Shown one piece after another: positions 35,918 to 60,248 of a DNA stretch of 64,000 nucleotides. The stretch lies in assembly GCA_002281555.1 (NCBI GenBank), contig NCGJ01000014.1, positions 1 to 64,000 on the forward strand, read 5' to 3'. The position numbers and the translations under genes are program-made. Source of the stretch: Hydrogenophilales bacterium 28-61-23. Lineage in GTDB: Bacteria > Pseudomonadota > Gammaproteobacteria > Burkholderiales > Thiobacillaceae. Within the stretch, counting starts at the first letter, position 1, and each line of letters begins with the position of its first letter. The notes under the pieces are model-generated. The model did no database searches, had not been told where the DNA came from, and worked only from the letters and a program-made list of their open reading frames with translations.

Positions 35918-35920
35918 GGC

Positions 35921-36624: not shown

Positions 36625-37488
36625 ATGCGCCCTATTTCCAGTCCCATTCCCGCCTTGCTGATGTTGCTGCTCATAAGCGCCCAGACCGCGCTCGCCGCCG
36701 ACCTGCCCATCGTCGCCCGCATGGGCTCGATCACGCTGACCGAAGCCGATGTCAAAACCATCGTGCAGGCCAACCCGGCGGAAGCCCGTACGGCCCAGGG
36801 CCTGGAAAAGCGGATCCGCACTGAAATCATCCGGCGCGCAATCGCCGCCGAAGCCCGCCGGCAATCCTTCGACAAGAAACCGGAAATCGCCGCGCGCATG
36901 GATCAAGCGGCCGAGCAGACGCTGGTCACCAGCTACATGAACGCCATTGCCCAACCCCCGGCCGATTTCCCGTCTCAAGCGCTGTTGCAGCAAACCTATG
37001 AAGCCAACAAAGACGCTTTGATGTCGGCCCGGCAATACCGCGTAAGCCAGATTTACGTGGCTGGCAACGATGCCAAAGCAACCAAGCTTGCCGACGAGTT
37101 GCTGCGCGAGGCCCGCCGCAAGGGCGCGGATTTTGCCGCCCTGGCGCGTAAATCTTCACAGCACCCGGCCAGCGCCAACAAGGGCGGCGACATGGGATGG
37201 CTGCCCGAAACCGAATTGGCGCCGCCGTTCAAACAGGCCTTGACCAGTTTGGCCAAGGGCGATGTCGTGGCCGCACCGGTGGCAGGCCCGGAAGGTTTGC
37301 ATATTCTGAAACTGGTGGAGCGCAAAGATCCAGCGTTACAACCGCTAGAGAAAGTTCGCGACATCCTGGAGCGCAATCTGCGCTTGCGCAAAGCCGCCGA
37401 AATTGAACAGGCTTATCTCGACTCGATGCTGGCCAAGACACCGGTCACGCTCAACGGCATCGCGCTGGAAGAGCTGGTCAAACGCTGA
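36625..37488 (+). CDS. Periplasmic peptidyl-prolyl isomerase, parvulin (PpiC/SurA) type
   Basis: This 287-residue exported folding factor has a signal peptide ending at ALA (residue 27) and an N-terminal helical chaperone region to about residue 135. A parvulin domain (about 136-240, YRVSQIYVAG...GGDMGWLPETELAPPFKQAL...GPEGLHILKLVERK) follows, and then a helical tail. It probably helps fold outer-membrane proteins. It is 17 nt downstream of the HAD gene. The tail ends 135 bp before the first genes of the surface-protein block, whose large beta-barrels could be clients, but that is inference. Confidence 0.9.
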   Translation: MRPISSPIPALLMLLLISAQTALAADLPIVARMGSITLTEADVKTIVQANPAEARTAQGLEKRIRTEIIRRAIAAEARRQSFDKKPEIAARMDQAAEQTLVTSYMNAIAQPPADFPSQALLQQTYEANKDALMSARQYRVSQIYVAGNDAKATKLADELLREARRKGADFAALARKSSQHPASANKGGDMGWLPETELAPPFKQALTSLAKGDVVAAPVAGPEGLHILKLVERKDPALQPLEKVRDILERNLRLRKAAEIEQAYLDSMLAKTPVTLNGIALEELVKR

Positions 37489-37623: not shown

Positions 37624-38301
37624 TCACCCGCCCGGCGCTTTGATCAGTTTCTGATCATCCAGTTTGTCCCGGTACTCTTCCAGCAGGTTCTCGATTTCCA
37701 CCCGCTTCAGTCCGGTGAACGGCTCTTTCTGGGCGAGCACTTCGCCACACGACTTATTCTCGAACCGGGTCATCAACTCGCGCCCGGTCTGATACAGCTT
37801 CAGATTTTTATCCTCGCAACTGGCGATTTCCCGTTCATTGCGCGTTTTGACGCCTTCCAGTTGGCGTTTATCGGCCTCGGTTCTCGCCAGCGTCATCTGG
37901 GTCTGGGACAACGTCTTCCCGGTTTCGGTCAACTTGGTTTCGGTATCGGCCAGACGCGTTTGCGTTGTCGCCAGCTCCTGTTTGACGCCTTCCAGGTCTT
38001 TCAGCAACTGCTCGCCCTTCGCCTTCTCCTGGCCCAAGTCCTTCTCCAGCTTGCCCAGCTTGCCCTGGGCGCCTTTTGCTTCCTTACGGGCCTTGTCGCG
38101 CTCACCGCTGAGCGTCAACTTTTCCTGCTCCAGAGTGGAAAGCTGGCCCTGCACCTGCTGCAACTGCATTTGAGCGCGACGCATCGCCTCGCGCTCACGG
38201 TTGGCTTTCTTGTCGCCCGCGGCAAAAACCGGCCCGCAAATCAGCGAACCGGCGAGCAGCAAAACCAGTAATCGAAGTAATCGAACTTGAACTTTCATCA
38301 T
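37624..38301 (-). CDS. Exported coiled-coil protein
   Basis: This 225-residue protein has a signal peptide (about 1-27, ending VFA) followed by a nearly continuous coiled coil of about 150 residues rich in Lys, Glu, Gln and Thr (for example QLSTLEQEKLTLSGERDKAR). The two cysteines (SCEDKNLK and KSCGEV) could form a disulfide near the C-terminus. I do not recognise a family. It lies last in the TonB/porin/ankyrin series and is probably periplasmic, perhaps a structural or tethering part of the envelope complex. ATG 38301 has AAGGAAAAG upstream; a second ATG follows at once. Confidence 0.8.
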   Translation of the reverse strand: MMKVQVRLLRLLVLLLAGSLICGPVFAAGDKKANREREAMRRAQMQLQQVQGQLSTLEQEKLTLSGERDKARKEAKGAQGKLGKLEKDLGQEKAKGEQLLKDLEGVKQELATTQTRLADTETKLTETGKTLSQTQMTLARTEADKRQLEGVKTRNEREIASCEDKNLKLYQTGRELMTRFENKSCGEVLAQKEPFTGLKRVEIENLLEEYRDKLDDQKLIKAPGG

Positions 38302-38329
38302 CTTTTCCTTGGATAAACCCAAATTGTTC

Positions 38330-38490
38330 ATTAGCGTGTTAATGGTTTTTAACCCCCTCTCCCGCAAGCGGGAGAGGGTTGGGGAGAGGGAAACGTCAGT
38401 CGAGGATGCTTTCTCACTCACAGAACCCCACCCTCTCCCCCAACCCCTCCCCCGCTTGCGGGGGAGGGGAGTAACACCAACAGCACTAAT
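38330..38490. repeat. BIME-like unit A, inverted copy of the one at 40971
   Basis: Two hairpins, CCTCTCCCGC-AA-GCGGGAGAGG (38355-38376) and CCCCTCCCCCGC with its complement (38444-38469), flank an inner segment CGAGGATGCTTTCTCA (about 38401-38416). The same inner segment appears in reverse complement near 41041-41056, and outer sequences (ATTAGCGTGTT, AACACCAA) also match. The two units of about 160 bp therefore bracket the ankyrin and porin genes in opposite orientation. Confidence 0.88.
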
Positions 38491-38524
38491 AAATCGTTTG
38501 AGATAAAACTGGCGCAACACCCAC

Positions 38525-39322
38525 TCAAAGCGTGGTCGCGCCATGATCGACCAATAACTTCTGTATCCGCTTGTTGTCGGTAAACGTGGTCGAGTCGAGC
38601 GCCGTGCCCTTGTTCTTGTCCTGAACATTCGCATCGACGCCCGTTTCCAGCATCAGGCGCACCGCCTGCTCGAACCCTTCCATCGCCGCCACGCTGAGCG
38701 CGGTCCGGCCCTCTCGATTGAACAGCGTGTAATCGGGACGGAACGGCATCAGCACGCGGATGACATCCAGACGATTCATGCTGGCCGCCGCGGTCAAAGC
38801 CGAATTCCCATCGCCACTTTTGAAATCCGGATTGGCTCCAGCCTTCAACAACAGCCTGGCGATTCGGGCATGCCCGCGTAGAGCCGCAAGCACCAACGGG
38901 GTGTAACCGCCGCCTTTGAGATCCGGATCGGCGCCGGCATCCAGCAGCAGGCGCGTGATTTCGACATCGCCCTGCTCGACCGCGAGAATCAGCGCCGATT
39001 TGCCCCACTGCCCAGTCAAACCGTTGGGATTCACCCCGTTCTTCAACAATGCGTCGATCCGTTCCCGATCTCTTTTTTCAACCGCATGGATCAACTCCAA
39101 CTGCCCTTCGACCGCATATTCCGGCTCCTGGTCGTTGCCGGTGGCCTTGATGCGGGCGAATTCGAGCGGGTTGAACTTCCGGCGTTCGGCGTCCTGCCGA
39201 GCGCCCGTCTCGGCGGGAAAGAGCCAGGTATCGCGCTCCATGTCGAAGGCGAGAGCCTGGGGCGCCAGCACGAACAAAGCCAATGGAAATAGGCAGGTCG
39301 GCAAGCCCTTGCCGACTTTCAT
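38525..39322 (-). CDS. Exported ankyrin-repeat protein
   Basis: This 265-residue protein is predicted to be exported, with the signal peptide MKVGKGLPTCLFPLALFVLA ending near QALA. The mature part carries about five ankyrin repeats (about 80-262; for example GKSALILAVEQGDVEITRLL and YTPLVLAALRGHARIARLL). Ankyrin repeats bind proteins, so a periplasmic scaffold or inhibitor role is plausible. Unusually, the first nine codons (MKVGKGLPT) lie inside a GTAG-type REP hairpin, and no ribosome-binding site precedes ATG 39322. An upstream start at 39376, overlapping the porin stop, is possible. It follows the porin gene closely and is probably co-transcribed. Confidence 0.82.
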   Translation of the reverse strand: MKVGKGLPTCLFPLALFVLAPQALAFDMERDTWLFPAETGARQDAERRKFNPLEFARIKATGNDQEPEYAVEGQLELIHAVEKRDRERIDALLKNGVNPNGLTGQWGKSALILAVEQGDVEITRLLLDAGADPDLKGGGYTPLVLAALRGHARIARLLLKAGANPDFKSGDGNSALTAAASMNRLDVIRVLMPFRPDYTLFNREGRTALSVAAMEGFEQAVRLMLETGVDANVQDKNKGTALDSTTFTDNKRIQKLLVDHGATTL

Positions 39323-39354
39323 TGCGATCTGTCGGCAATGGGTTGCCGACCTAC
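39294..39354. repeat. Inverted pair of GTAG-type REPs around the ankyrin start
   Basis: One hairpin (GGTCGGCAAGCCCTTGCCGAC, split across 39296-39316) and one in opposite orientation (39331-39354, ending GCCGACCTAC) form a small BIME. It spans the gap between porin stop and ankyrin start, and its left half is translated as VGKGLPT. Confidence 0.88.
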
Positions 39355-39362
39355 AGCCTGGC

Positions 39363-40928
39363 TCAGAACTTGGCATTCAGATCCACCTGCATAACATTGA
39401 CACTGTATTTAAGGCCGTCTATCTCACTCGCTGACTGCCACTTCAATGACAGCCAGGTATTCCGATCCAGACCATAAAGTCCGCCAATAAAATAACCCTT
39501 GCTGTTGGTGCCGCCCAAATTAAAGTCGGAATCGGTGAAGGCATCGAGAACCGCATCGCGCTCAAGATATCGATATCCAAAATAGGCCTGCCAGTCGCCG
39601 GATAAAGAAACACTGGGTTTGCCGACCGTGGTTTTAAACATCCAGCCTTGTGTTTTCGCTTCATGAGCGGAGCCTAACAAGCTGGCCACTTCAGCTTGGT
39701 CATAACCTACGTTCTTAACAACATCCGCGCTGAAAATGACATGAACAGGATCGAAATAGCTCAAGTCAGTCATCGCGGTAAGGTTGATCACCCGATAATC
39801 GGCAGCCAGACCATATGCGTCCGTTTTATCAACTGGCGCAACCTGAAATACAGTATTTCCTTTTTGCCGGTAACTTAAGATCGAGTCTGAATATTCGTAA
39901 AGTGCGTCACCGCTTATATCGTCCTTAACAGCCTTGATATTGCGGTAGTCATAATATGAAACGCCGATACGCCAGCTTGAGTAAGCGCCACTGCGCCAAT
40001 CAACCGCCCCCTGGGCTGCAAACAACCACTTATCTTTTGCTTTATTGGTGTTCGATGACTGAACTTCCTGAAGCGGAAAGACGCCAACCGTGAAAAAAGG
40101 CTTGGCGGTCATTGTTCTGTTCGCCCAGGGTTTGAATCCGGCGGCAACACCATCGAAATTCAAATCATCATCCCAAACCAAGTCGGTGCTGAAGAATGGA
40201 TTGGGAATTCGGCCTGCCGTAATTTCAAGCCAGTCCGCGGGTTTGGCTTTCCCGTAGGCACGGTCAAGAACCAGAGAATATTTATTACCGCTGACTCCAA
40301 GCGTTTGGTTAGTCGAAACAGGATCGGATGTATTTCCTGTTGTAAGTCGAAAACCGGCAGAGACCGAATCAGAAACTTTTGCCAATAAACCCAAACGGGC
40401 GCGCACACGGGTACGGCTTCGATCTTCTGACGTATTAATTGGGTTCGCAGCGGTTCCCAGGCCATACGGCTGGGTAATGAAATTGGTACCGATATCATTA
40501 TCGGAGGCAAAGATATCTTCCTGATATCGAACCCGAATATCCCCTTCCCACTTCAACCGATCCACCCATTCCGGCACCGCGTTGACATCGCCCCAGCGCT
40601 CGGTCTTGGCCTGGGCCACGACTTCCTGGCGCAACTGCTCGCGTATCTCCCGCTTCACCACTTCGGGGATATAGGGCACCCGAACCACGCCGGCGGCGGC
40701 TTCCGCCTTGATGGCGGCATCGGCCTTCTCCTGGCCCTTGTCTTCGGCCTGTTTGACCAGCGCCTTGGCCGCTTCGTCGGTCAATATGCCCTTTTCCACC
40801 AGGGCATCGATGATCGCCTGGGTGGTTGCGCGCAAGGCTTCGAGCTGCTCCCGCTCGCCCGCCTGTGCGGGCATGGCTGCAGCGAGGGCAAGCGCCAGGA
40901 TCAGAGGTTTGATGGTGGTCTGTTTCAT
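39363..40928 (-). CDS. Putative outer-membrane porin
   Basis: This 521-residue protein has a signal peptide ending AQA (residue 23), then an alpha-helical, Lys/Glu/Ala-rich periplasmic segment (about 25-110), and then a beta-barrel of amphipathic strands ending in a terminal Phe (VNVMQVDLNAKF), as outer-membrane barrels do. The family resembles the annotated putative porins (DUF3373/PF16930-like), with RVRYQEDIFASDN and SRTRVRARLGLLAKVSD near the barrel start. In this neighbourhood it may be the channel energised by the TonB-like and ExbBD proteins, or it may anchor the surface filament. GC content drops somewhat in the barrel-coding half (about 39480-40520), suggesting different ancestry or constraints. 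Confidence 0.82.
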   Translation of the reverse strand: MKQTTIKPLILALALAAAMPAQAGEREQLEALRATTQAIIDALVEKGILTDEAAKALVKQAEDKGQEKADAAIKAEAAAGVVRVPYIPEVVKREIREQLRQEVVAQAKTERWGDVNAVPEWVDRLKWEGDIRVRYQEDIFASDNDIGTNFITQPYGLGTAANPINTSEDRSRTRVRARLGLLAKVSDSVSAGFRLTTGNTSDPVSTNQTLGVSGNKYSLVLDRAYGKAKPADWLEITAGRIPNPFFSTDLVWDDDLNFDGVAAGFKPWANRTMTAKPFFTVGVFPLQEVQSSNTNKAKDKWLFAAQGAVDWRSGAYSSWRIGVSYYDYRNIKAVKDDISGDALYEYSDSILSYRQKGNTVFQVAPVDKTDAYGLAADYRVINLTAMTDLSYFDPVHVIFSADVVKNVGYDQAEVASLLGSAHEAKTQGWMFKTTVGKPSVSLSGDWQAYFGYRYLERDAVLDAFTDSDFNLGGTNSKGYFIGGLYGLDRNTWLSLKWQSASEIDGLKYSVNVMQVDLNAKF

Positions 40929-40970
40929 ATCGTCGTCTTCAATTCAACTTGTAATAAGCCCAGATTGTCC

Positions 40971-41128
40971 ATTGGCGCTATTGGTGTTGCCCCCCTCTCC
41001 CGCAAGCGGGAGAGGGGCTGGGGGAGAGGGGGGGTGCGCATGAGAAAGCATCCTCGTACGCCGTTTCCCTCACCCCAACCCTCTCCCGCTTGCGGGAGAG
41101 GGGGCAACAAATCTTTCAACACGCTAAT
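40971..41128. repeat. BIME-like unit B
   Basis: Hairpins CCCCTCTCCCGC-AA with its complement (40992-41017) and CCCTCTCCCGC-TT with its complement (41079-41102) surround GAGAAAGCATCCTCG. It is the reverse-complement partner of the unit at 38330-38490, and it fills the gap between the TonB-like gene and the porin gene. Confidence 0.88.
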
Positions 41129-41177
41129 AATCAATCTCGGATAAACATCGGCACAAATTACCGACAGCCCTCTGCAT

Positions 41178-41828
41178 TCACCGCGAAACCACACGCAGCT
41201 TGACCGGCTGGGGAATGTCCTCCGGCAAAGGATCGCGCAACGTCATGCCTTGAATCTCGCGGCGCAGGACTTCATCCAGTTCGGCATTGCCGCTGCCCTT
41301 GTCCAGACGCATCCGGATCACACCGCCCGCCACATCGAACCAGATCTGCGCAACGACCTGATAGTCCTTGCCCTGCAGCGCCTTGACCCGCTTCAACTCG
41401 TCTTCCAACTGGCGAGAAATACGTTTCGAATACCAGGCATTGCGATCGCCGCCGGCGCCGCCACCGCCAATGCCGATTCCGGTACCTCTGGCCAGATCGG
41501 TCGCCATGCCGCCCGCCGGGCCGTCCGGTATGCCACCGGGCGGCGGCGGCGCGTCATCCGGCGGCGTGTCCTGAGGCTTGGGGTCATTGATGACCACCTC
41601 CTCCTTCGGCTGCTCGATTTTCTCCGGCTCGGGCGGCTTTTCTTCCGGTGGCTTGGGTGGCGGCGGCTTCACCAGCGAAATGGTCTGGATAGCGGGCGGC
41701 TTCGGTTTCTCCGCGTCATTGATAAAGCCCATGACCAGCCAGATCACACCCGCCGTAAAAACCGCCATGAACAACAGGCCGCCGATCAGCGGCAAACGAC
41801 TGCGCAGGGATCGCTTGTGTGCCGGCAT
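41178..41828 (-). CDS. TonB-like energy transducer
   Basis: This 216-residue protein has an N-terminal membrane anchor (LPLIGGLLFMAVFTAGVIWLVM, residues about 12-33), a Pro/Glu/Lys-rich periplasm-spanning segment (KPPPPKPPEEKPPEPEKI), a Gly-rich hinge (GTGIGIGGGGAGG), and a C-terminal domain of TonB type (ISRQLEDELKRVKALQGKDYQVVAQIWF...). It would carry proton-motive energy from the ExbBD pair to an outer-membrane partner. ATG 41828 lies 3 nt after the exbD stop, so the three Ton genes form one unit. The partner is probably local: the porin or TpsB, since no TonB-dependent receptor is nearby. Confidence 0.88.
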   Translation of the reverse strand: MPAHKRSLRSRLPLIGGLLFMAVFTAGVIWLVMGFINDAEKPKPPAIQTISLVKPPPPKPPEEKPPEPEKIEQPKEEVVINDPKPQDTPPDDAPPPPGGIPDGPAGGMATDLARGTGIGIGGGGAGGDRNAWYSKRISRQLEDELKRVKALQGKDYQVVAQIWFDVAGGVIRMRLDKGSGNAELDEVLRREIQGMTLRDPLPEDIPQPVKLRVVSR

Positions 41829-41830
41829 CG

Positions 41831-42238
41831 TTACTTGGGCTGCTTGGCCGTCACCAGACCGAGCTGAGTGATTTCCAGACGACCGCACAAATCCATGACA
41901 TCGATGACTTTTTCATAAGCGATCTTCGAATCGCCCTTGATCACCACCGGCAAATCGGGCGTTGCCGCCTTGAAGCCGCGCAAGCGGCTTTCCAGTTCGC
42001 TCATGCTGACCGGGTAGGTATCCAGATAAATCTGGCCGTTCGCATCAATGGTGACCGCCTTGGTTTTTGGCTTGCCCAGACTGGGCGTATTGCTGGCCTT
42101 GGGCAGATTGACCTTGATGCCCTGCACCGAAGCAGTGGTCATGATGATGAAGATGATCAGCAGCACATAGGCCAGATCCAGCATCGGCGTGATGTTGATA
42201 TCGTCAAACGGCTCATTGTCTTCGCGTAGTTCGGACAT
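41831..42238 (-). CDS. exbD: ExbD/TolR-family biopolymer transport protein
   Basis: This 135-residue protein has a short cytoplasmic N-terminus and one membrane helix (ITPMLDLAYVLLIIFIIMTTA) that contains the essential proton-carrying Asp in PMLD. A periplasmic domain (about 50-135) follows. With the ExbB-fusion gene 21 nt upstream it would form the proton channel that drives the TonB-like protein encoded 2 nt downstream. Length and motifs are normal for the family. Confidence 0.93.
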   Translation of the reverse strand: MSELREDNEPFDDINITPMLDLAYVLLIIFIIMTTASVQGIKVNLPKASNTPSLGKPKTKAVTIDANGQIYLDTYPVSMSELESRLRGFKAATPDLPVVIKGDSKIAYEKVIDVMDLCGRLEITQLGLVTAKQPK

Positions 42239-42259
42239 CTTCGTCTCCGCTCCTCGCCT

Positions 42260-44038
42260 TTATCGGCTGTAGGTTTCGGCGATGCGGGCGATGTACTCGT
42301 CCACGAACACATGCATATCGGCACCGATGGACTTGATGCGCGAGCCTAGATAGTTGTAGCCAAACAGCGCCGGGATCGCCACGCCCAGGCCGGCGACGGT
42401 GGCCACCAGGGCGGCGGCGATACCCGGCGCGATGGCCGCCACGTTGACGTCGCCGGTCGCGGCAATAGCCGCGAAGGTAATCATCACGCCGACCACGGTG
42501 CCCAGCAGACCCAGGAAGGGACCGCCGGAAATGGCGATGGTCAGCAACACCATCAGACTGCTGAGCTTCTGGTTTTCCCGCACCAGGGCGCCATCGAGGG
42601 TGGCGCGGATAGCATTCAGGGCCTGGGGAGACAGTTCCACGTCGGCGCGCTCGCCCACCCGCTTTTTCACTTCCTGGATGCCCGCGTGATAAATGCGGTA
42701 CAGGCTGGCGTTCTGGAAATGGTCATGGTGGCCGAACATGATCGAAGCCAATCCCGCGTTTTTCAGGTCCGCGTCTTCCGGGTTGTCATCGGCATCCAGC
42801 GCGGCGGTGTCCTTGCTCTTGAGATCGTGGAAAGCCTCCATGAAAGTCTTGTTGGCCTTATCGGTCTTGCTCACCACCATCGCCTTGATCGTCATCACCA
42901 ACACGCTGATGCCCAACATCACCATCAAGATGCCGATCACCACCCAGCCGTCCAGGGTCACGCTTTGCAGAATGACACCGAAGTAGGACGCTTCGCCGCC
43001 GCCCTCGCCTTCACTCTCGTCCTCGCCGTAGACCGTCAGCTTCGCATCCGCGCCCTGACCCAGAGCGGCCGCCTTGATCCAGTCGGCGCCGCGCGCCACG
43101 TTGGCCAGATTCAGTTCATCCATCTCACCATGGAAGCCGCGACCGAGTGTGATATCCCCGCCCATATCCGGACAGTGCGCCTCGGAGCCGGCAACCTTCT
43201 GGCCGTTGACATAGACGGAAACGTCTTCGCCCATGGTCAGGGCCAGATGAAACCAGCCCGAGGCGGGTAGATCGACCGGCGGCATGCTTTGCAGATTGAC
43301 GCTGCCGTCGTTCACCGTGGCAACCAGCTTGCCATCCTGAAGCGCCAGAGCGACCGACTTGTTGCCATCGACGCGGCTGAACAAAACCGAGTTCTGCTTG
43401 GCCTCGCTGGAGCGAACCCAGGCCGAGAACGTGGCTCCGGTCGCCCGGCCGATATTCAGCGAAGGCGACGCCCGAATGGTCAGCGTCGCCTCGCCGTCAA
43501 AACCCAGCCCCCCGCCGATGGCCGCCCCGGCCAGACGCGCGCCGGTGAATTCGATGGCATGGTTGGCATTGCCGGTTGCATCCTGCGGCGCGCCATTGGC
43601 CTCGCTGAAATGCCAGACCCCGACCTGATTGGCGTCGTAAGTGCCCTTGACATCGCCGCCCGCCGTACCGGCCTCGTTACCCGAATACAGCCAGATTTTC
43701 TGCGTGTTGTTGCCCGGCTCCAGCTTGGGCGCCTGCACCCAGATCAAAGCCAGTTGATTGACCGCATCGAATTTCTCGATATGGAATTTGAGCGGTGTCT
43801 TGTCATCCTCAGCGACAAAACGCAGATCGGAACCGTCTTCCTTGGCATTGATGAAATCGAAATTGCCCGTATGCAAACGCACCAGCACCGGCACATTGGC
43901 TAGCCCCGCCTTCAGATCGGCCCCATCGGCGGCCGTATTCAGGTTGATGGCCTTACGCGCGGTCCAGTCACCGTTCCACCAAGCATGGGCATGAACAGAC
44001 ATGAACAGCAGGAACAGAGACAGCAGAAAGCGCTTCAT
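42260..44038 (-). CDS. exbB: ExbB/TolQ proton channel fused to DUF2341 and LamG-like domains
   Basis: This 592-residue protein has a cleavable signal peptide (MKRFLLSLFLLFMSVHAHA), then WWNGDWTARKAINLN, the DUF2341 opening. Residues about 20-125 are DUF2341. Residues about 135-325 form a concanavalin/LamG-like jelly roll (VGVWHFSE...SAWVRSSE...GWFHLALTMGEDVSVYVNGQK). A Glu/Gly linker leads to a first helix (about 363-385), a cytoplasmic loop, and the ExbB core helices (SLMVLLTIAISGGPFLGLLG and GIAAALVATVAGLGVAIPAL). Ordinary ExbB is about 230 residues without such an ectodomain. I use ATG 44038 because it gives the signal peptide; a start at 44071 would add 11 residues. The ectodomain could bind a glycan or the TpsA filament. 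Confidence 0.9.
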   Translation of the reverse strand: MKRFLLSLFLLFMSVHAHAWWNGDWTARKAINLNTAADGADLKAGLANVPVLVRLHTGNFDFINAKEDGSDLRFVAEDDKTPLKFHIEKFDAVNQLALIWVQAPKLEPGNNTQKIWLYSGNEAGTAGGDVKGTYDANQVGVWHFSEANGAPQDATGNANHAIEFTGARLAGAAIGGGLGFDGEATLTIRASPSLNIGRATGATFSAWVRSSEAKQNSVLFSRVDGNKSVALALQDGKLVATVNDGSVNLQSMPPVDLPASGWFHLALTMGEDVSVYVNGQKVAGSEAHCPDMGGDITLGRGFHGEMDELNLANVARGADWIKAAALGQGADAKLTVYGEDESEGEGGGEASYFGVILQSVTLDGWVVIGILMVMLGISVLVMTIKAMVVSKTDKANKTFMEAFHDLKSKDTAALDADDNPEDADLKNAGLASIMFGHHDHFQNASLYRIYHAGIQEVKKRVGERADVELSPQALNAIRATLDGALVRENQKLSSLMVLLTIAISGGPFLGLLGTVVGVMITFAAIAATGDVNVAAIAPGIAAALVATVAGLGVAIPALFGYNYLGSRIKSIGADMHVFVDEYIARIAETYSR

Positions 44039-44192
44039 GAACGGACTCGGCAATAAAACAAAGTCGCGCATTATGAGTTGGCGCTGTTACAGCGCCGTTA
44101 AGGCGGCATGAAGCTAATGACTCAGTGCGGCAGGGCGGCATAGACATGCCGCCCTGTCGCACTGAAACCCCTGCCCTCACATGCAACGAAGA

Positions 44193-50100: not shown

Positions 50101-53100
50101 CCCAGCGAACTGCGATAGCCGGCGACCAGATAAGCGCCATCGGCGCGCTGCGAGTTCTGCGCGGCAGTCATGTCCCGCGTGTTCGTCACGGCGCGTACCG
50201 CCACCGCCCCCGGCAACAAAGCGTAGTGCGCCGGCAGCAGGGTGTAGTAGCCCGCCGCAATATTGAGTTCCGGGATGGCCGAGAGATAGACGCTTTCACC
50301 CGGGTTTACCTGTTGCGTCGCGCCCGTACCCAGCGCGCGCCCGGAAATCTCGCCCGTGCCCTGAGCGGATTTGTAGGAATACTGCGCGTACTGGAAGTCG
50401 AACGGCGCGGCCTGGCCGGCGCTGGCGGGCAGGATGGCGAACACGCCAGGCGCCGACAGATAATCGCTGGAACCGCCCGAGCCGGGTGTGAATTCGTAAC
50501 CATAGAGATCGCCGCCACCGGACAGGTCGATTGTGGCTGTCTCCTTCTTGACGATGCTGTTGCCCTTCAGCAGGACGTCCTTGGTCGGCAGATTCAGCGT
50601 CCCGTCTGCGCCTGAAAAGATGCTGCGCTGTTTAGCCGTGGCGCCAACATTGAGGTCGTAAATCCAGGTCTGGCCGTTGGCCACGCGGCCATATGGAATC
50701 AGCGACCCTTCGGCCGAGACCGAGGTCAGGCTGTCGTCAAACAGCGTCAGCGTCTTGGCGGCATCAAGTTCGATCCGGCCGAGCGGGGCACGCAACACGC
50801 CGTACTGGTCGATGAAGTCGGCCTTGAGTGTGACCGCGCCGCCCGCCGCCAGCGGAACGGCGGCGGATGAACCATTGCTGTGGATTGCGATCCTGCTTCC
50901 CTCCTCCGGATTCACGCTTGCCGGCTTCACGCTCTCCAACACATATTCGCTGAGGGTCGTCGGGTAGACCTGGGTCGCCGTCAAAGTCAGATCGCCCGCC
51001 GTGCTCAGTTGGCCGACCGGAATCAGGGAGTCGTCGCCAATCGGGACGACCCCGGTGAGACGGATATCCCCGTCGCTGTTCAGGTTTGCTTGTGCCGCGC
51101 CGGACAACGACCAGTTGCCGATCAGATCGATCACGCCGGCATTGGCCGTGAACACGCCCGCACCGCCAACTGGAGCTGGCACTTGGCTGCCTGTCGTCTG
51201 GTACAAGGGGTCGGCATTGCCGAGGCGGATGGACAGGGCATCCAACGTCACCTCCGCGGAGCCGGCCACTTCGACCGATGCGGTATCCAGGCTCAGACGG
51301 CCGCGCAAGGCGAGGTCGAGGCTCTCCTCGAAAACGATGCGGTCGCGGCTTTTCAGGCTGACGTGGTCGAAACTCGCCAGCTTGCCGGCATCCAGCTCGG
51401 CGCGACCGTTATCGCTGTCGGCAATCGACGTGCCCGGCTTAGTCAAATAGACCGGGAAGACAGGATTGCCGGCGTAAAGCGCGATGCTGCGCATACCGGT
51501 CAGATAATCGTTGGCAACCTCATCGTCAGTCGGGATGTCCGGCCGATCCAGTTCGATGCTGAGCGAACCACGCGTCGCCTCGCTGGAGCCGCCCGCCGCT
51601 TCCATACCGGCGGCAAGGAAAATGCCCTCGCTGGCCGCCAGGCGCAGACTGCCACCCGCCGACGCAAGCAAGCTTCTGGCGTAACCGGTTCCCGTGTCCT
51701 GGCGCGGCAGATCGAGACTCGCCTGCGTGCCGGACACGTCCAGCAAAGAGCCCGGCTCGGCGACAATGTAGCCGTTATGCGCCAGCAGGCCGATCGAACC
51801 GCCGTCCAGCACCTCGCCCTGGATACGGCCGTCGCTGCCGCGATAGGTGTGGGCGACGCCCTGGGCGGAGATACTCGCCGTCTCGCCCAGCCAAATGGCC
51901 GCATCCGCAAGATAGCCGGCGCCACCGCTGTTTGGCCCCTTCAATTCCAGTTGGATGCTGCCGCCTGGAGCGCTCAGGTTCCCCTCCAGCGTCAAGCTGC
52001 GCACCGCCGTCAGATTCAGACTGGCGCGCGGGTCTAGGTCAATGCGCACATTTTTGCCAACGCGCAGACTGCCCAGGTCATCGGACGTGGCGGACAGATC
52101 CAGATGGGTAACCGGCCGTTCCGCCTTGGCGACGCCCCAGGCAAGCTGCGTGGGGCGACTGAAGTCGGCGACCGAAGCCCCGGATGCGACGTTAACTCGT
52201 CTGGCATCGAGCATACGGGTCAGCGTGCGCGGCGCGACCACGGCGTCATCGGCAACGTTCAGCCCGTTGGCGCCCGTAATCGCGTAGTCGGAAAACCCGC
52301 CTTGCTGGAAAAAAGTCTCGGCCAGCCAGAGTTCGGCCGAATCCGGGACGGCGGGTTGCGTTCCACCAATCCCGACCTTCAGGGTAGAGATTGTCAATTT
52401 GCCGCCGCGACCGGCCTTGAGGCTGGAATCGAGCAGCCCGTAGCTGCGCAGTTCGCCCGCCAGGCGGATCGGTTCAGACTCGCCGATGCTCCGGTTATCG
52501 GTCAGCGAGATGTCGCCGCCCTTGCCTGTCGACCAAGTCTTGCCATCGACCTTGAGCCATGCCCCCGCGCTGGCATCGAGCAGGCTGCCTGCCGCCAGAT
52601 CGATCAGACCCTGAGCGCTGATGCCGATGCCGCCGCCATTCAGCACCACGGGTGCTGCGGCATTCCGGGCGAGATAGTCGTTGCTCCACAGGCCGGCCGT
52701 GACGATATCGCCGGCAATGGTCAGGTGCTGATCCAGCGTGGCGGGATCCACGCCTTGCGCGGCGGCCAGGCTGGCTGCACGCTCGTCGCTCCCGGCCAGG
52801 TTGTACACCGTGCGCATCGAGGCGAGATTGACGCTCCCGCCCGGCGTTTTGATATCACCCAGGATATCCAGGCTGGCGCCAGTCAAGTTAACGCTTCCGC
52901 CTGGCCCAACATCCAGCGTTTGGTCGCTTTCGACGCGTATGGCGTTATTGGTGAAGACGCTCAGATTGGCGATATTGGCCGCCTTGAGCTTGGCCGCGTC
53001 CAGAACCAGAGTGCGTTGCAACTCGTTGGACAGCGCCGTGCCGTGGTCAGGCGCGGCGCTCTGCGCCACACTGCTGAAAACGATCTCGTTGAGAATGCGG

Positions 53101-55199
53101 TAATCCCGGCCGGCATCGGGTCCGGAAGGATTGTCGATGCCTAATTTAAGGGTTGCGCCCTTGGGCAGTGTTGATCCACTTTGGCCACCGGCCCCGCGCT
53201 GACGCTCACCGATGACTGTGTCGCCCTTGATATCGCCTTGCAGTGCGCCCCAGGGCGCCACGATAGTCAATGCGCCGGCATCCTTGCCTTCGCGATAACC
53301 CTGCTCGGTGACCACCCGATCCGCGCCCAGTCCCGTATAGGCCAGATCGGCCTTGGCCGTGGCGATATCGTAGAGCCTGCCATGGTAGAGCAACTGGCTG
53401 GTGGCGACATTGCCGGTCCGATAAGAGATGGAGCCGCCGGAAAGGTCGATGCTGGCATCGTTCTGCACGACCAAAGCGCCTTCCGAATAGAGATTGACCT
53501 TGCCGCCGGCGGTCATCTTCTCGTCCACCTTGCGGCCGATCTGGGCAATATAGGTCGAGGCGTCCGCCAGCGTGGTGCCCTGGCGCGTCACGCTCTGGCC
53601 ATTGACATCCACTGTGCCCGTATCGCGGATGTCGACCTTGATCTTCTTGCCGTAGAGCGGGCCATCGATATCGTGCAGCAGCGGCGAATCGGCCACCACG
53701 CCGCCGCGCAGTTCCACCTCCACCACATTGCGCTCCATGGCCACCGCCACATCGCGCAGACCGCTGACGTCGAGCACCGCACCGGTATCGATCTGCACGC
53801 GGCAATCCAGGCAACTGCCATTCAGCGCGAAAGAACCCGGATCGTTCGGATTGGTCAGGAATATCTTGTTCGGGTCGACACTCGCGCGCTGAAGCGCCTG
53901 CAAAGTAATGTTCCCGCTCGGCGCTTTCAGCACAGCGTCCCGCCGCACCCAGATATCGCGGCCCTCGGCCTTGATCTGCGATGCGCTGTAGGCCTGCGCG
54001 TCCTGCAGCGTGGTGTCGGGCATATAGGCGTAGAAATCGGCCAGCGTCGCCGCGCCGCGATGGTAGGCATCCACCTGGGCCTGGGTCAGCTTGCCGGCGG
54101 CCATCGCCACCTGAACCTTGCCCGCATCCAGGGCCGGCATGATCACGGTTCGGCTGTTTTCGCCGAACTCCACGCTGCCGCTCGCATTGGCGGAAACGTT
54201 GCCGCTGGGCAGATAGATATCGGTCGTCGTGCCTGAGGCGACCTCCCGCGCCAGCAGATGGATGGTGCCGTTCAGGTTGACCGAACTGGTGGCGGTAACG
54301 ATGCCGTCCTGTTTGACCAGCTTGCCGATCAGCGTGACGTCGCCCTGCTTGGCAGCCAGTTCGCCCAGGTTCACCGCGCTGCCGCCGCTGCCCACTTCAA
54401 CCAGCAAGCCGCGCAGCAGCGTGTTGGAGTCCGAGATGTTGGTCAGGTGGAAATAAGCCTTGTGGCCGGCCGCCAGGATCACTTGGCCGGTGTCGGTGGT
54501 GACGATGCCCTTGTTCTCCACATCCGGCGCCAGCAGGATCACCTTGCCGCCGGTGGCGGCGGTGATGGCCGCGCCCTCGGCCACCCGCACCATGCCGACC
54601 GGCGCGGTGCCGACATACTGCGTGTAGGCATCGCTGAACGCCGGTTCGGTCTGTGCCGCCGTCAGGTAGCCGTTCTTGAACAGTTCGTCGTCCTTGATAT
54701 CCAGCGTCGACGCGACCAGCGTGTGCAGGTTTACCTGGGCGCCCTTGTCGAACAGGATGCCGTTGCGGTTGATCACGTAGACCGCGCCGGTCGCGTTCAA
54801 CGCGCCCTGGATCACGCTGGCCTCGTTGCCGACGATGCGGTTCAGCGTCGCGGCGGTGGCGTTGGGTTGGTTGAAATTGACCGTGGCGGCGGAACCGATG
54901 TTGAACGTGTTCCAGTGGATGATGCCGTTCTGGCTGGCCTGATTGATGTTGAGGGTATTGCCGGTTTGTGCGATGCCGATATCGCCATAACGCACATTCG
55001 CACCTGTCGGCACTTCAGTGGGCGCCGGCGGATTGGCCGCCCAAACCGGCACAGCCAGCATCGCCAGCATCGCAGCGGCCAGACGCGCCTTCGCGCCGCG
55101 ATTGCGGCGCTTACCGGAATGCGCGCTGCTCACCTCGGAAACAGGGACGTGCATACCCAGGCGTTTGCTGAAAACCAGACGATAGCTGCGTGCGTTCAT
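44193..55199 (-). CDS. TpsA: giant filamentous haemagglutinin-type exoprotein (DUF3739)
   Basis: This 3668-residue two-partner-secretion exoprotein starts with an extended signal peptide (MNARSYRLVFSKRLGMHVPV, cleavage near PVWA at 54-55). The TPS secretion domain follows (about 60-200), with NRNGI at 144-148 in place of the usual NPNGI. Thousands of residues of short beta-helix-like repeats follow, rich in Gly, Ala, Asp, Asn and Ser. The C-terminus resembles DUF3739 and ends in a charged tail DEAEKNRREEERRRRG. There is no VENN motif, CDI toxin or immunity gene, so it is probably an adhesin or matrix filament. The gene is followed by exbB (155 nt) and preceded by tpsB after a 338-bp REP-filled gap. 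Confidence 0.93.
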   Translation of the reverse strand: MNARSYRLVFSKRLGMHVPVSEVSSAHSGKRRNRGAKARLAAAMLAMLAVPVWAANPPAPTEVPTGANVRYGDIGIAQTGNTLNINQASQNGIIHWNTFNIGSAATVNFNQPNATAATLNRIVGNEASVIQGALNATGAVYVINRNGILFDKGAQVNLHTLVASTLDIKDDELFKNGYLTAAQTEPAFSDAYTQYVGTAPVGMVRVAEGAAITAATGGKVILLAPDVENKGIVTTDTGQVILAAGHKAYFHLTNISDSNTLLRGLLVEVGSGGSAVNLGELAAKQGDVTLIGKLVKQDGIVTATSSVNLNGTIHLLAREVASGTTTDIYLPSGNVSANASGSVEFGENSRTVIMPALDAGKVQVAMAAGKLTQAQVDAYHRGAATLADFYAYMPDTTLQDAQAYSASQIKAEGRDIWVRRDAVLKAPSGNITLQALQRASVDPNKIFLTNPNDPGSFALNGSCLDCRVQIDTGAVLDVSGLRDVAVAMERNVVEVELRGGVVADSPLLHDIDGPLYGKKIKVDIRDTGTVDVNGQSVTRQGTTLADASTYIAQIGRKVDEKMTAGGKVNLYSEGALVVQNDASIDLSGGSISYRTGNVATSQLLYHGRLYDIATAKADLAYTGLGADRVVTEQGYREGKDAGALTIVAPWGALQGDIKGDTVIGERQRGAGGQSGSTLPKGATLKLGIDNPSGPDAGRDYRILNEIVFSSVAQSAAPDHGTALSNELQRTLVLDAAKLKAANIANLSVFTNNAIRVESDQTLDVGPGGSVNLTGASLDILGDIKTPGGSVNLASMRTVYNLAGSDERAASLAAAQGVDPATLDQHLTIAGDIVTAGLWSNDYLARNAAAPVVLNGGGIGISAQGLIDLAAGSLLDASAGAWLKVDGKTWSTGKGGDISLTDNRSIGESEPIRLAGELRSYGLLDSSLKAGRGGKLTISTLKVGIGGTQPAVPDSAELWLAETFFQQGGFSDYAITGANGLNVADDAVVAPRTLTRMLDARRVNVASGASVADFSRPTQLAWGVAKAERPVTHLDLSATSDDLGSLRVGKNVRIDLDPRASLNLTAVRSLTLEGNLSAPGGSIQLELKGPNSGGAGYLADAAIWLGETASISAQGVAHTYRGSDGRIQGEVLDGGSIGLLAHNGYIVAEPGSLLDVSGTQASLDLPRQDTGTGYARSLLASAGGSLRLAASEGIFLAAGMEAAGGSSEATRGSLSIELDRPDIPTDDEVANDYLTGMRSIALYAGNPVFPVYLTKPGTSIADSDNGRAELDAGKLASFDHVSLKSRDRIVFEESLDLALRGRLSLDTASVEVAGSAEVTLDALSIRLGNADPLYQTTGSQVPAPVGGAGVFTANAGVIDLIGNWSLSGAAQANLNSDGDIRLTGVVPIGDDSLIPVGQLSTAGDLTLTATQVYPTTLSEYVLESVKPASVNPEEGSRIAIHSNGSSAAVPLAAGGAVTLKADFIDQYGVLRAPLGRIELDAAKTLTLFDDSLTSVSAEGSLIPYGRVANGQTWIYDLNVGATAKQRSIFSGADGTLNLPTKDVLLKGNSIVKKETATIDLSGGGDLYGYEFTPGSGGSSDYLSAPGVFAILPASAGQAAPFDFQYAQYSYKSAQGTGEISGRALGTGATQQVNPGESVYLSAIPELNIAAGYYTLLPAHYALLPGAVAVRAVTNTRDMTAAQNSQRADGAYLVAGYRSSLGDTNVGQTRWSGFEVASREVVTSRAGFEFQYSAAELKAQTPSGRSEIHDYLASRLIPGIAALYDLSLPKLGPDAGRLGINATTSLQLDGTIDFSHDPGTLGGELDIASSKLAVTDGSAPHFDDPSVNPADYLVLDVDLLSSYGVDSLMLGGTREAIAGDVGSVRVNQVADAVLIETSAEKPLSAPEVMLVSKGSITLAAGSEVRGEGNGSSKNETLVFGDDSTAGSGDGVLVRASSGGLRGVVRKNTERKRLNADGDVIETDGLYTASNALIDGANSVNIDSTYTAFNLGSVEVGKDVLDADGKKLGTEGGALQLGATRVALGEVTDILQGVFVTNELLDSLGKPNEIVLKSYSNFDVYGDATLGNADTQSLILQGAGFAGVSTGTLSIAAKNVAFANPDGTDFDDAAAVGTGTMQVNADTIQFGQGGVKTAGFDTVKLVARGEIAGSNGMGGMTVSKDLSMTAQSIVGYNGSDMAFNVGGKLTTANYVAKTVDGVVEKLPELGSTPLGAKMTFVAESIDHGGKIDMPAGVLTMTAESGDLNLLDGSSIFTGGVVRTFKGVNDTVVVAVAGGSTTLTADIGNLAIASGATVDVSGAGGADAGRLTMHVPNGTFALSGQLAGGVEVIASVPNPWMGSFSLDANIIDDGDADTGNDFSALLQHVTGFGENFSMRQRTGDLVVAADDTIKARRVVLSVDDGVLDIAGKIDAHAADGGWVMAAAGKELYLRDDAEIDARATGAAQRGGEVYLISGMNRDYVADDVSNGALVLENGSTIEVGGTLATAVRFTGNNAGDPDIALTQVTGGRVHLQAPRLGSGAGTDVRITHVDVNNNPDGEVMFGSDDDIGTRINGAALIEVLGNKVFDYSTLGATQMTAIKNDSQSFMNSAGTAKTRLGGDALKNSAAFQVRPGVEVRSDGDLTFSSDYDFGAITAVAQNQPGSLTLRAAGKLLVNGNLSDGFNSATGAILDGGESWSYRLVAGADLAAADPMAVQRNLEAGTGDFVLKGGKLIRTGTGAIQIAAGGDVEIGLNNDGSHNRVSVVYTAGRDDSNPDAYIKPTDSYFGKVSYGVDGGALGIVAAGSIAAPEYGQLTNNWLQRRGTIDSTGAIARSPTWGVAYEYFNQGVGALGGGNVHIEAGRNIDNLSVSLPTTGRDYAAQDAGGKLFETGGGNAEMHADGDIRGSFMYVQKGQGRVTAGGAIGAMPATDLDSDTYDNRNLILAMGASQIEVFARNGLVLETAFNPTVAATGTLAGSLNVSGSYKSSSNTDFFTYGDDSAVRLVSAQGDLLLSNDRARVDEQALFVSEVYGGSAPNFMTGTFVYPGSLTVAAVNGSVKVGNTFAMYPSSQGKFQLLAQGDVTFSGGVAMSDVDPARLPSLQAPSKGFEPADALLFSIQDTAAYHAPDLTHLNDADPVRVYAETGSIEYVAENETALDTLYFPKLVEFLAGLDIRDLSLTAQHVAAGQTSNIQAGRDIRYQPLRIDGYLANNGSGIQVDGPGYLNVAVGRNIDLGSTAGIVSNGNLKNPALPAGGAHITLLSGMGADADGRPRQPDYAAFSATYLAAGSTALTDFAAAIEDFEIRRVTMLQPENTGLSYAEVQTKLKDSTYRTSMKTLAGEEIVAALAAFDASPLDARARRIFYHELEMAGVEANQGLGYERANKAIALFFPGKNAAGDKIAYAGDLSVFFSQIRTNQGGDIELLTPGGSVAVGLVSNPVDLAGIRKASELGLFTVNGGGIRSYVRDNFAVNTSRVFTLGQEKKAARTTEYERLLRDDIMLFSLLGDIDAGKGAKTATAAPPPTYEYDGKGNLKVNLANSIAGSGIGVLLAREVIVPGDVSLIAPSGAVNAGDAGIRASGNLNIAAAHVIGADNIQVSGLSIGVPVAVDTGGLSISGIGSLGDAAQTAGEATRSLAATSEESQKAAQEMKQAMAGFKPSFITVEVLGFGDGTASVSDQLDEAEKNRREEERRRRG

Positions 55200-55537
55200 A
55201 GCTCAGTTCCTTGTCAAATTACCCAGCAACGGTTTGGTATCACCAATCGGATGCCAAACCGTAGGTCGGCAATCCCTTGCCGACAATCCATCCAACCAAC
55301 CCGGCGGCATGGTAATGCCGCCCTACGCAAAACCATTCCCAACCCGTAGGTCGGCAACCCTTTGCCGACAATCCCCCTCGCGGCGGGGGTTCGCCGCCTT
55401 GCCAAACCAAAGGCAATCGGACGGTGAACCGGCGGCATGGGAATGCCGCCCTACTGGCCCGTTCCTGCCGTAGGTCGGCAATCCCTTGCCGACTTCCACA
55501 AACCCCGGCGGCATTCCCATGCCGCCCCATTCCATCC
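55200..55537. repeat. Array of seven REP hairpins between tpsB and tpsA
   Basis: Elements of two subtypes alternate. GTAGGTCGGC...GCCGAC occurs at 55261-55283, 55346-55369 and 55470-55493. GGCGGCAT...ATGCCGCC occurs at 55303-55326, 55431-55454 and 55507-55526. A GGCGG-loop-CCGCC hairpin lies at about 55375-55398. The 109-bp stretch 55346-55454 is repeated, with few differences, at 62792-62900 beside the RAYT gene. No gene is hidden here. The tpsA promoter or a translational control region must lie within or beside the array. Confidence 0.88.
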
Positions 55538-57241
55538 TCACCACTCCGCGCCCAACCGGAAATGAATCCGGTCGTCGCCTGAATCCACGCCGCCGGCGTC
55601 TTTCAATGCGATGGCGTAATCCACCCCGCCGCTGAATTTTTTGCCGGCCCGAAAACGCAAGCCCAGCCCGGCCGAGGCCAGGTTGAAACGGCTTTGCTGA
55701 AACGCGCCGGGTTCCAGGTAATAAAGCCGCGCGCCCTCGACGAAGGTGAGCAAATACAGCTCGTTCAGCACCGGCGCCCAAGCGCCGGCCAGCGGCGGGC
55801 TTTGCAGCTCCAGACCGGCGCGCCAGCCCTTGTCGCCCAGCGCAGCGGATTCCGGATAGCCGCGCACGCTGTCCGCGCCGCCGGCGGCCATTTGCTCGTT
55901 GGAAATCAGCGGGCTGGCGCTGTATTGGGTGGAAAGCTTTCCCGAAGCCAGCATCGCGTAAGGCAATTTGTAGCTCTGGCGCAGATCCGCCTTGAACAGC
56001 ATGAAATCGGCCTTGCCGCCGGGGTTGCGCTTGGCGGCGAACTCCTCTTCCTTGCCGATCACGCCGTTGATGCCGAATACCGTCGTAAGGCCGATCTGGG
56101 TCTGGCTGCCTGCTCCGGCCAGGGTCAGGTCATAGCTGGCGCTGAACGGCATGTAGGTAATCGGCAGATTGTTGTCCTGCTGGCCCTGGAAACGCTGGGA
56201 GTCCTGATAGTCCTTGTAGTCCGCGCCCAGCGTCAGCGAATGGAACACGCCCGGACGGGGACGCAACGGAACCACATAACGCAGGCCATAAATCTGGCCC
56301 TTGCCGATAGAACTGATGCCGCCCACGGTGGTTACGTCGGTATCGGAAAACACCGCGTAGGCGGCCAGCACATTCCCGTTCGCTTGCGGCGCGCTATAGC
56401 TGGCGACCAGCACCTTGGATTCATCCGGCTTTTCCGGCGCGGTCTGGAAATTGAGATTCAGGCTGTGCCCGGTCTGCCACAAATTGTCGTAGCGCACTGC
56501 CGCGCTCAACCGGGTTTTCGTGGTGTCGCGGCTGTAACGGTCGTTCAGTTCCACGCTGGCATGCAGGGGCGGCTTGTCTTCCACTTTCAGTTCCGCCTCC
56601 ACGGTGCCGGGTATGCGTCCGGCGCGCAGCAAGGGCGTCACCCGACGACCGGCATCGCGGTTGAGCTGGCCGAGTTCCTTCTGCACATCGTTGAAGTTGG
56701 GCACCTTGCCCTCGTCCAGTTCCGGCGTTTTGGCCTTGATCGCGCCCAGCGCGTAGTAGCGCGAACCGCTCACCTTGAGCCGCTCCACCTTGCCCTCCAT
56801 CACCTCCAGGCGCACCACGCCGCCCGCCACCTTCTGCTCGGGCAGCGTGACGAAAACGGTGAGGTAGCCGGCCGACTGATAGGCTTTTTCCAGCGCGGCC
56901 CGGGCCTGCTCGACATCGGCGATGGTCTTTTTCTCGCCCAGGTGGGGATAAACCGCATCTTCGATCTGCGCCGAAGGCAACACACTGTTGCCGCGCACCT
57001 CGTATTCGAGAATATCGAAACGGCCGTCGTCCTTCTCCACCACCGCTTTGGCCGGCACACCTGTGTCCGCATCGGCGGCAGGTGATTCCGGGTAGGTCGG
57101 CAATCCCTTGCCGACCTCGTCCGCACCTACCGGCGCGGCAACCAACAACACAAACGACCCGCAACACGCCAAACGGCGCAGCACGCGGATCATCAAAACA
57201 GGGGTCTGTCGATACTTTGACATTCGTTGAATAGTCGTCAT
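55538..57241 (-). CDS. TpsB: outer-membrane transporter of the ShlB/FhaC family
   Basis: This 567-residue two-partner-secretion transporter has an N-terminal export signal ending near PVGA, POTRA-like domains (about 68-215, FDILEYEVRGNSVLP... and VRLEVMEGKVERLKV), and a 16-strand barrel with the conserved VRGYPES motif. It ends in HFRLGAEW with a terminal aromatic residue. Starts at 57241, 57223 and 57193 are in frame; 57193 gives a tidy signal peptide, and none has a good ribosome-binding site. Right after the predicted cleavage site a GTAG-type REP (57092-57116) is translated as EVGKGLPTYPE. It must export the tpsA product encoded 338 bp downstream. Confidence 0.93.
   Translation of the reverse strand: MTTIQRMSKYRQTPVLMIRVLRRLACCGSFVLLVAAPVGADEVGKGLPTYPESPAADADTGVPAKAVVEKDDGRFDILEYEVRGNSVLPSAQIEDAVYPHLGEKKTIADVEQARAALEKAYQSAGYLTVFVTLPEQKVAGGVVRLEVMEGKVERLKVSGSRYYALGAIKAKTPELDEGKVPNFNDVQKELGQLNRDAGRRVTPLLRAGRIPGTVEAELKVEDKPPLHASVELNDRYSRDTTKTRLSAAVRYDNLWQTGHSLNLNFQTAPEKPDESKVLVASYSAPQANGNVLAAYAVFSDTDVTTVGGISSIGKGQIYGLRYVVPLRPRPGVFHSLTLGADYKDYQDSQRFQGQQDNNLPITYMPFSASYDLTLAGAGSQTQIGLTTVFGINGVIGKEEEFAAKRNPGGKADFMLFKADLRQSYKLPYAMLASGKLSTQYSASPLISNEQMAAGGADSVRGYPESAALGDKGWRAGLELQSPPLAGAWAPVLNELYLLTFVEGARLYYLEPGAFQQSRFNLASAGLGLRFRAGKKFSGGVDYAIALKDAGGVDSGDDRIHFRLGAEW
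57092..57116. repeat. REP hairpin inside tpsB coding sequence
   Basis: GTAGGTCGGCAATCCCTTGC continues to CGACCT, a complete GTAG-headed hairpin embedded in frame in tpsB. It encodes VGKGLPTY between the signal peptide and the first POTRA domain, a region likely to tolerate insertions. The hairpin sequence matches those in the tpsB-tpsA gap. Confidence 0.9.
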
Positions 57242-59531: not shown

Positions 59532-59683
59532 GTTTACTTCTCCGAATGAGTCATGGTGGGTGTTGCCGGATGTTTCCCGACTGCCTATGCGTCGACATCG
59601 GGAAGCGTCCGGTGCGCCAGTAGCGCTGGCAGCCACTTTCCACCCTTACTGTTACATTTCTTACCGTCCGCAAACCCGAAAAA

Positions 59684-60216: not shown

Positions 60217-60248
60217 CCTGGCTAGCGCCCTGGCGGGCGCGGCGGCGC

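Follow-up and report, generated by a model that had tools for sequence, protein, structure and literature searches.

The 64,000-nucleotide window analysed here (positions 1 to 64,000 of contig NCGJ01000014.1, assembly GCA_002281555.1, from Hydrogenophilales bacterium 28-61-23) contains a two-partner secretion (TPS) locus in which tpsB and a very large tpsA are followed by genes for ExbB, ExbD, a TonB-like protein, a porin, an ankyrin-repeat protein and a coiled-coil protein. A preliminary description had reported these as eight co-directional genes, and both the open reading frames (ORFs) and the Pfam domains (Table 1) agreed with it, all eight genes lying on the minus strand. The gaps, which it had called short, are mostly so, the exceptions being tpsB-tpsA (338 bp, holding three repeats resembling repetitive extragenic palindromes, REP), tonB-porin (249 bp) and ankyrin-coiled coil (about 220 bp).

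Table 1. Features of the locus, with positions in the window.
Feature	Position	Strand	Basis or remark
TpsB outer-membrane transporter	55538..57241	-	Pfam POTRA_2 (56792-57019) and ShlB barrel
TpsA, 3,668 aa: ESPR signal region, TPS domain, long middle, DUF3739, tail	44193..55199	-	Pfam
M1 tail motif PSFITVEVLGFG, TpsA residues 3631-3642	44274..44309	-	Conserved 12-mer flanked by variable stretches
ExbB: periplasmic ectodomain (DUF2341, Laminin_G_3), then MotA/TolQ/ExbB core	42260..44071	-	Pfam
ExbD	41831..42238	-	Pfam
TonB-like protein: membrane helix, proline-rich linker, C-terminal TonB_2 domain	41178..41888	-	Pfam, sequence
Porin_5 porin	39363..40928	-	Pfam, E 3e-169
Ankyrin-repeat protein, probably secreted, optional member	38525..39376	-	Pfam
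Coiled-coil protein with signal peptide	37624..38301	-	Likely true start
PpiC-type peptidyl-prolyl isomerase, adjoining the unit	36625..37488	+	Pfam

Gene content of the locus

The two secretion partners have the features of a type Vb pair, namely a POTRA domain and a ShlB-type barrel in TpsB and an N-terminal TPS domain in TpsA (PF05860, E 2e-26; ESPR, E 1e-6); the DUF3739 domain of TpsA lies at 44463-44792. An energising complex is likewise represented, by a MotA/TolQ/ExbB core, which matched TolQ and ExbB chains in the Protein Data Bank (PDB), an ExbD with its membrane aspartate and a C-terminal TonB domain. The aspartate (D21), in the predicted membrane helix of ExbD, was invariant across the 54 rows compared and the ExbB core is strongly conserved, so that the proton channel seems to be retained. 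In the TonB-like protein, TonB_2 scored above the Pfam cut-off and tonB_Cterm below that of NCBIfam. Inspection by eye indicated that this gene could alternatively start at 41828, and pointed to a position near 38301 as the probable start of the coiled-coil gene, giving a protein with a signal peptide (MMKVQ...), rather than 38634. Of ten proteins of the window scanned with Pfam, none showed a TonB-dependent receptor domain, the rest of the genome not having been searched for receptors. The window genome encodes a single DUF3739 protein and three ExbD proteins, one of them in the unit; given the two further ExbD genes, the motor set of the unit is additional to others.

Linkage across genomes

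The linkage of DUF3739 TpsA genes with motor and porin genes is real and extends over Alpha-, Beta- and Gammaproteobacteria. In a sample of 200 genomes from the order of the window, DUF3739 was found in 23, DUF2341 in 25 and Porin_5 in 28 (five of these with weak matches only). By coordinates, 21 of the 23 DUF3739 genomes had DUF2341 no more than 25 kb from it, and 22 had Porin_5 as near. The exceptions for DUF2341 were G135 and G166, the latter carrying it on a separate contig. Conversely, 22 of the 25 DUF2341 genomes also had DUF3739, when about 3 would be expected by chance; among the remaining three, G038 and G137 matched the ectodomain only, in long open frames, and a 3.5-kb contig of G052 carries exbB, exbD and tonB. 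A phylum-level sample of 398 genomes gave DUF3739 in 14 genomes, 13 of which had DUF2341.

Scanning of genome contigs yielded 74 loci with DUF3739, and phmmer placed the ExbB ectodomain within 55 of them. The remaining 19, of which many sit at the end of a contig, came from 18 genomes, 13 of which have a DUF2341 gene. All 40 loci that reach at least 3.2 kb past exbB showed exbB, exbD, tonB and the porin gene in this order, all in the same orientation. The coiled-coil gene was present in 35 of the 35 loci extending far enough and the ankyrin gene in 14 of them, while relatives of the PpiC-type isomerase occurred at eight further loci. The accompanying genes, called the hub from here on, remain together where tpsA sits elsewhere. 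The preliminary description, which would have given up its proposal if the exb-ton-porin and tps genes occurred together only in this genome, is thus borne out on this point.

At five loci, from Methylophilaceae and some other Betaproteobacteria (L005, L006, L008, L032 and L055), the hub carries a tandem pair of ExbD-like genes. At L074 (9539-10491), from Nitrosospira multiformis Nl12, the DUF3739 end of tpsA is divided between two frames and the genome has no DUF2341 match, possibly a joint decay of fibre and hub.

A conserved motif on the TpsA tail

At or near the C-terminus of nearly all DUF3739 TpsAs, after a variable linker, we found a 12-residue motif, M1 (Table 1). A moderately strict pattern recovered it in 139 of 183 ORFs; of the others, some are truncated at the locus end and most carry a looser form of it. 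A stricter pattern matched 101 of the 183, none of 4,947 other six-frame ORFs and nothing in the remaining 301,216 TpsA residues. Over 83 distinct tails, mean pairwise identity was 0.67 in M1 and only 0.22 and 0.19 in the two preceding 12-mers.

Several genomes carry many TpsAs. The Tardiphaga genome G203 (L051) has 20 DUF3739 matches, 20 full-length VreA-like proteins (see below) and one DUF2341; Bradyrhizobium cenepequi (G201) has 10 TpsAs (11 rows, two of which are pieces of one), 10 VreA and one DUF2341. The corresponding numbers of TpsA, VreA and DUF2341 were 5, 6 and 1 in G200, 4, 5 and 1 in G211, 3, 4 and 1 in both G410 and G631, 3, 3 and 1 in G576, and 2, 3 and 1 in G606. POTRA_2 matched once in G201 and once in G200, within the hub, and three times in G203, once within the hub. 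One hub may thus be able to serve many fibres.

These multi-copy genomes allowed M1 to be compared within and between genomes (54 TpsAs from ten genomes with two or more copies; L201, whose TpsA end is in two pieces, was omitted). Within genomes, M1 identity was 0.89-0.99 whichever band of domain identity was taken, from 0.3 upwards; between genomes it was 0.76-0.83, even when the DUF3739 region was more than 0.8 identical. For pairs with domain identity above 0.8, M1 identity was 0.97 within genomes (86 pairs) as against 0.73 between them (49 pairs). Among the 34 TpsAs of the three genomes richest in copies, the values were 0.97 within and 0.78 between, and none of 1,000 permutations was as high, whereas the second tail motif described below, M2, gave 0.40 within and 0.42 between (883 of 1,000 permutations as high). 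M1 therefore has a genome dialect. In G203, the 20 genes encode only 2 M1 peptides in 19 DNA versions, with a mean of 4.6 of the 12 codons silently different, and the 12-mers flanking M1 are just 0.39 and 0.27 identical. So many DNA versions of two peptides speak against recent gene conversion, and a peptide shared in differing codons suggests that M1 is selected to match something common to the TpsAs of a genome, for which the single hub is the obvious candidate.

Covariation was computed over 43 genomes, from tails with a strict M1 for which each of the five hub proteins was of sufficient length (43 of 93 candidates); TpsB, which most loci are too short to include, did not enter the test. 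The correlation of M1 was r 0.52-0.62 with the hub proteins and r 0.33 with the DUF3739 region of the same TpsA. When the others were held fixed, partial correlation with M1 was 0.22 for the ExbB ectodomain (0 of 500 permutations as high), 0.21 for ExbD (1 of 500) and 0.11 for the C-terminal TonB domain (23 of 500); none was left for the porin, the ExbB core or the N-terminal part of TonB. The preliminary description had suggested a contact between the LamG domain and the TpsA repeats; as far as sequences can tell, these data point to the TpsA tail.

A possible motor for TpsA fibres

We propose that DUF3739 TpsA fibres are served by a dedicated envelope hub whose motor recognises M1 with its periplasmic parts and acts on the fibre, a reading to which we give about an even chance of being right. 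The hub would consist of TpsB, the ectodomain-bearing ExbB, ExbD, the TonB-like protein, the stalked porin, the coiled-coil protein and, in some loci, PpiC. TpsB would export the fibre, leaving the DUF3739 domain and the tail in the periplasm. There M1 would be the address recognised by the periplasmic parts of the ExbB-ExbD-TonB complex, as the covariation indirectly suggests, and the complex would bind the tail. Proton flow through ExbB-ExbD could then pull or hold the fibre end, so as to complete export, anchor the fibre under tension or time its release. The preliminary description had already suggested that proton motive force may be used to act on the surface filament, and the specificity of the tail motif, its dialect and its covariation with the hub lend this indirect support. 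In its most explicit form, which we put forward tentatively and hold to be somewhat improbable, the proposal would define an energised type V system: a private ExbB-ExbD-TonB motor that binds M1 on giant TpsAs and draws on the proton motive force to pull on them, put them under tension or let them go, with up to 20 fibres of a shared dialect depending on a single motor.

Several observations weigh against the hub proposal. A few tails scarcely resemble M1 (for instance in L071 and L054), G135 has a TpsA without DUF2341 or Porin_5 (its contig ends beside the tpsA end), and G487 carries two TpsAs and no DUF2341 match. The partial correlations are small (0.11-0.22), with permutations that leave shared ancestry partly in, and TpsB, outside the covariation test, could be the reader of M1. 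In a predicted fold of the TpsA tail with VreA, M1 is disordered, with a predicted local distance difference test (pLDDT) score below 40. In Pseudomonas aeruginosa, insertions in PA0695 (tonB), tpsA and tpsB did not lower virulence in zebrafish (PMC2729926), and type V export is said to require no energy source (PMC5422565).

Porin and phosphate setting

In the AlphaFold2 model of the porin (mean pLDDT 80.9), helices at the N-terminus precede 16 long strands, and Foldseek against the PDB gave as best matches OmpM1, the attachment porin of Veillonella (template-modelling score 0.77 on the target). Unlike OmpM1, to which it is 18% identical, the window porin has no SLH domain match in Pfam. Judging from the model, the N-terminal stalk may tie the porin to the periplasm; a GVVRVxYVP stretch is conserved at the N-terminus of the porin. 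Genes for PhoX, GDPD or 5'-nucleotidase were found in 16 of the 74 loci (22 with choice-of-anchor I proteins included), usually in the interval from tpsA to exbB and mainly in Nitrosospira and Thiobacillus lineages. The setting is probably phosphate limitation, as shown by others in P. aeruginosa, which expresses the unit at low phosphate (PMC9769906), and as suggested here by the neighbouring genes in a few other lineages. A pho box at the window was considered and dropped, since the scans did not rise above chance: five two-repeat matches were found with 3.0 expected (18 of 100 shuffles had as many), and 24 of 60 random sequences equalled or bettered the best three-repeat match, which has 6 mismatches.

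These features could fit an uptake machine in which the fibre captures a phosphorus compound outside the cell, the porin admits it and TonB-ExbBD supplies the energy to the porin or to a partner. Linkage of the porin as tight as that of ExbB, its conserved N-terminal stretch, the phosphatase genes and the production of the P. aeruginosa unit at low phosphate (PMC4971064, PMC9769906) all agree with such a role. We nevertheless consider it unlikely, as the porin model shows no sign of a plug and is closest to an attachment porin, the porin retains no partial correlation with M1, the phosphatase insertions are confined to few lineages and the hub proteins include no TonB-dependent receptor according to Pfam.

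It also seems doubtful that these are simply phosphate-starvation genes which share one transcript and are co-regulated with no physical partnership. A single promoter does span phdA, pdtB, exbB2D2, tonB4 and PA0696-PA0701 in P. aeruginosa, under the control of PhoB and VreI at low phosphate (PMC4971064). Against this reading stand a gene order kept in all 40 testable loci, hubs that stay intact with tpsA elsewhere, and M1 dialects that follow the genome and its single hub.

VreA and a second tail motif

A tree of ExbB-ExbD from 74 hubs separated an 18-row clade from 56 rows that include the window, whose nearest named rows were from Thiobacillus. In the 18-row clade, 16 rows had both VreA and a second tail motif, M2, one had VreA only and one had neither. 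VreA is predicted to fold into an STN signalling domain and a TonB/TolA-type domain, both well formed. M2 follows M1 in this VreA clade, with profile scores of at least 7.8 as against at most 2.0, the profile having been trained on tails from the family of four of these genomes, whose own scores are accordingly not independent. By genome, VreA and M2 occurred together in 19, VreA alone in 1, M2 alone in 0 and neither in 66, absence of VreA meaning no full-length match among the matches listed (to E of about 1e-10 in one search and 1e-15 in the other). G367 and G210, with identical coordinates, were counted once, and the tabulation, which takes in genomes with both a tail reading and a VreA search, leaves aside genomes G072, G075, G097, G118, G135, G144, G157, G173 and G193 and loci L008, L014, L016, L028, L030, L033, L035, L039, L040 and L062.

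A pairing of VreA with M2 was not supported by further analysis. The tree gave one main origin and two independent pairs (sign test p 0.5), and in 16 pairs of M2 with the VreA encoded next to it there was no covariation (partial r 0.08, p 0.21). In the predicted fold of the tail with VreA, M2 formed a weak strand (residues 48-51, pLDDT about 50). The window genome (G000) gave two VreA-profile matches, the better being the C-terminal part of the hub TonB and the other weaker. The VreA-VreI-VreR signalling genes were not found as a set at the window, whose hub lies in the clade opposite the VreA clade and whose genome was not searched for VreI and VreR. That TonB-like domains read the TpsA tails and report the state of export to a sigma factor through VreA-VreI-VreR is therefore very improbable: VreA and TpsA are about equally numerous (20 and 20, 10 and 10) and M2 is confined to VreA genomes (19 of 20, against none of the 66 others), but a single clade is involved, the two tests just given fail to tie M2 to VreA, the best VreA match of the window genome is the hub TonB itself, and in P. 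aeruginosa VreA seems dispensable for VreI activation (PMC7035377).

Small proteins with a weak TonB-like C-terminal match stand beside TpsA genes of the VreA clade (L125, 12447-13115; L017, 11497-11982; L119, 15856-16314), the one in L125 having no Pfam match.

Neighbouring genes and repeats

REP-like palindromes (GTCGGCAANNNNTTGCCGAC) are present in 11 copies with at most 2 mismatches, when 0.06 would be expected, at 39297-39350, 55265-55493, 57096-57115 and 59885-62946. Besides the three copies between tpsB and tpsA, one falls within the tpsB reading frame, close to the mature N-terminus, and two lie where the ankyrin gene begins, and copies flank a RAYT-type transposase (Y1_Tnp, 62193-62795) on either side. 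Upstream of tpsB there are also two closely similar secreted paralogues (58734-59636, with a PEP-CTERM match, and 60249-61061) and an exosortase B/EpsI sequence (62978-63991). A PstS-like gene (57338-58642), 96 bp upstream of tpsB, was rejected as a member of the unit, its NCBIfam match being far below the cut-off, with one weak relative at the other loci. On the other side, at 33991-36607, a DUF3419 gene, whose product we take to be of the BtaA type, and a methyltransferase gene adjoin the unit in the window and are not found in the other loci compared. They are possibly a betaine-lipid pair; betaine lipids are a phosphate-starvation trait.

Comparison with known systems

A fixed partnership with a proton-driven complex, and a motif that follows this complex across genomes, open the energetics of type V secretion to peptide-binding and gene-removal tests. 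They also provide a first guess at what the Porin_5 and DUF3739 families do, and at the role of the ExbB-TonB set described as uncharacterised in papers on P. aeruginosa. New here are the presence of M1 on nearly all DUF3739 TpsA tails, the 20 TpsAs beside one DUF2341-ExbB, the genome dialect of M1 and its tracking of hub proteins.

Export through a TPS domain is shared with the adhesin pairs FHA/FhaC and CdrA/CdrB, in which the C-terminus is retained or processed at the cell. To our knowledge, these adhesins have no ExbBD-TonB hub, and their C-terminal regions are different. A TPS operon with a TonB-dependent partner is found in HxuA-HxuB-HxuC of Haemophilus influenzae (PMC5422565); TonB there serves a TonB-dependent haem receptor, whereas the window hub combines a porin with a private ExbBD-TonB set and has, by Pfam, no such receptor among its genes.

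The gene grouping is not new, since pdtAB-exbB2D2-tonB4-PA0696-0699 of P. aeruginosa is the same unit as that of the window. The preliminary description had called the machine little described, which is fair: the P. aeruginosa unit is known as a transcript made under phosphate starvation (PMC4971064), and exbB2-exbD2-tonB4 is presented as a putative TonB system that is "still uncharacterized" (PMC7035377), but the association was already in print in 2009 (PMC2729926). Our literature search found, among the matches listed, nothing on DUF3739, and work directly relevant to the unit in P. aeruginosa only; a mention of DUF2341 on ExbB-type proteins gives its function as unknown (PMC12505986). By published annotation, both units comprise a TPS pair, exbB, exbD, tonB, a putative outer-membrane porin (PA0696) and a PpiC-type isomerase (PA0699), together with PA0697, which is similar to channel-forming colicins, and PA0698 is annotated as YbjN (PMC7035377, PMC2729926). 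The window thus contains the Pdt/PUMA3-type set of TPS, exbB, exbD, tonB, porin and coiled-coil genes, and differs from the Pdt unit in belonging to a clade with no VreA match or M2, in the order tpsB-tpsA-exbB and in its ankyrin gene. In other bacteria, PUMA3 clusters accompany TPS, ExbBD and PA0696 homologues (Llamas 2009, PMC2729926). A precedent for one hub beside several fibres comes from Rhodopseudomonas palustris and Janthinobacterium, where a genome has four PUMA3 copies, three of them with tpsA behind and one with tpsB, exbBD and a PA0696 homologue (PMC2729926); the present genomes go beyond that case, with 10-20 TpsAs per hub tied to an M1 dialect.

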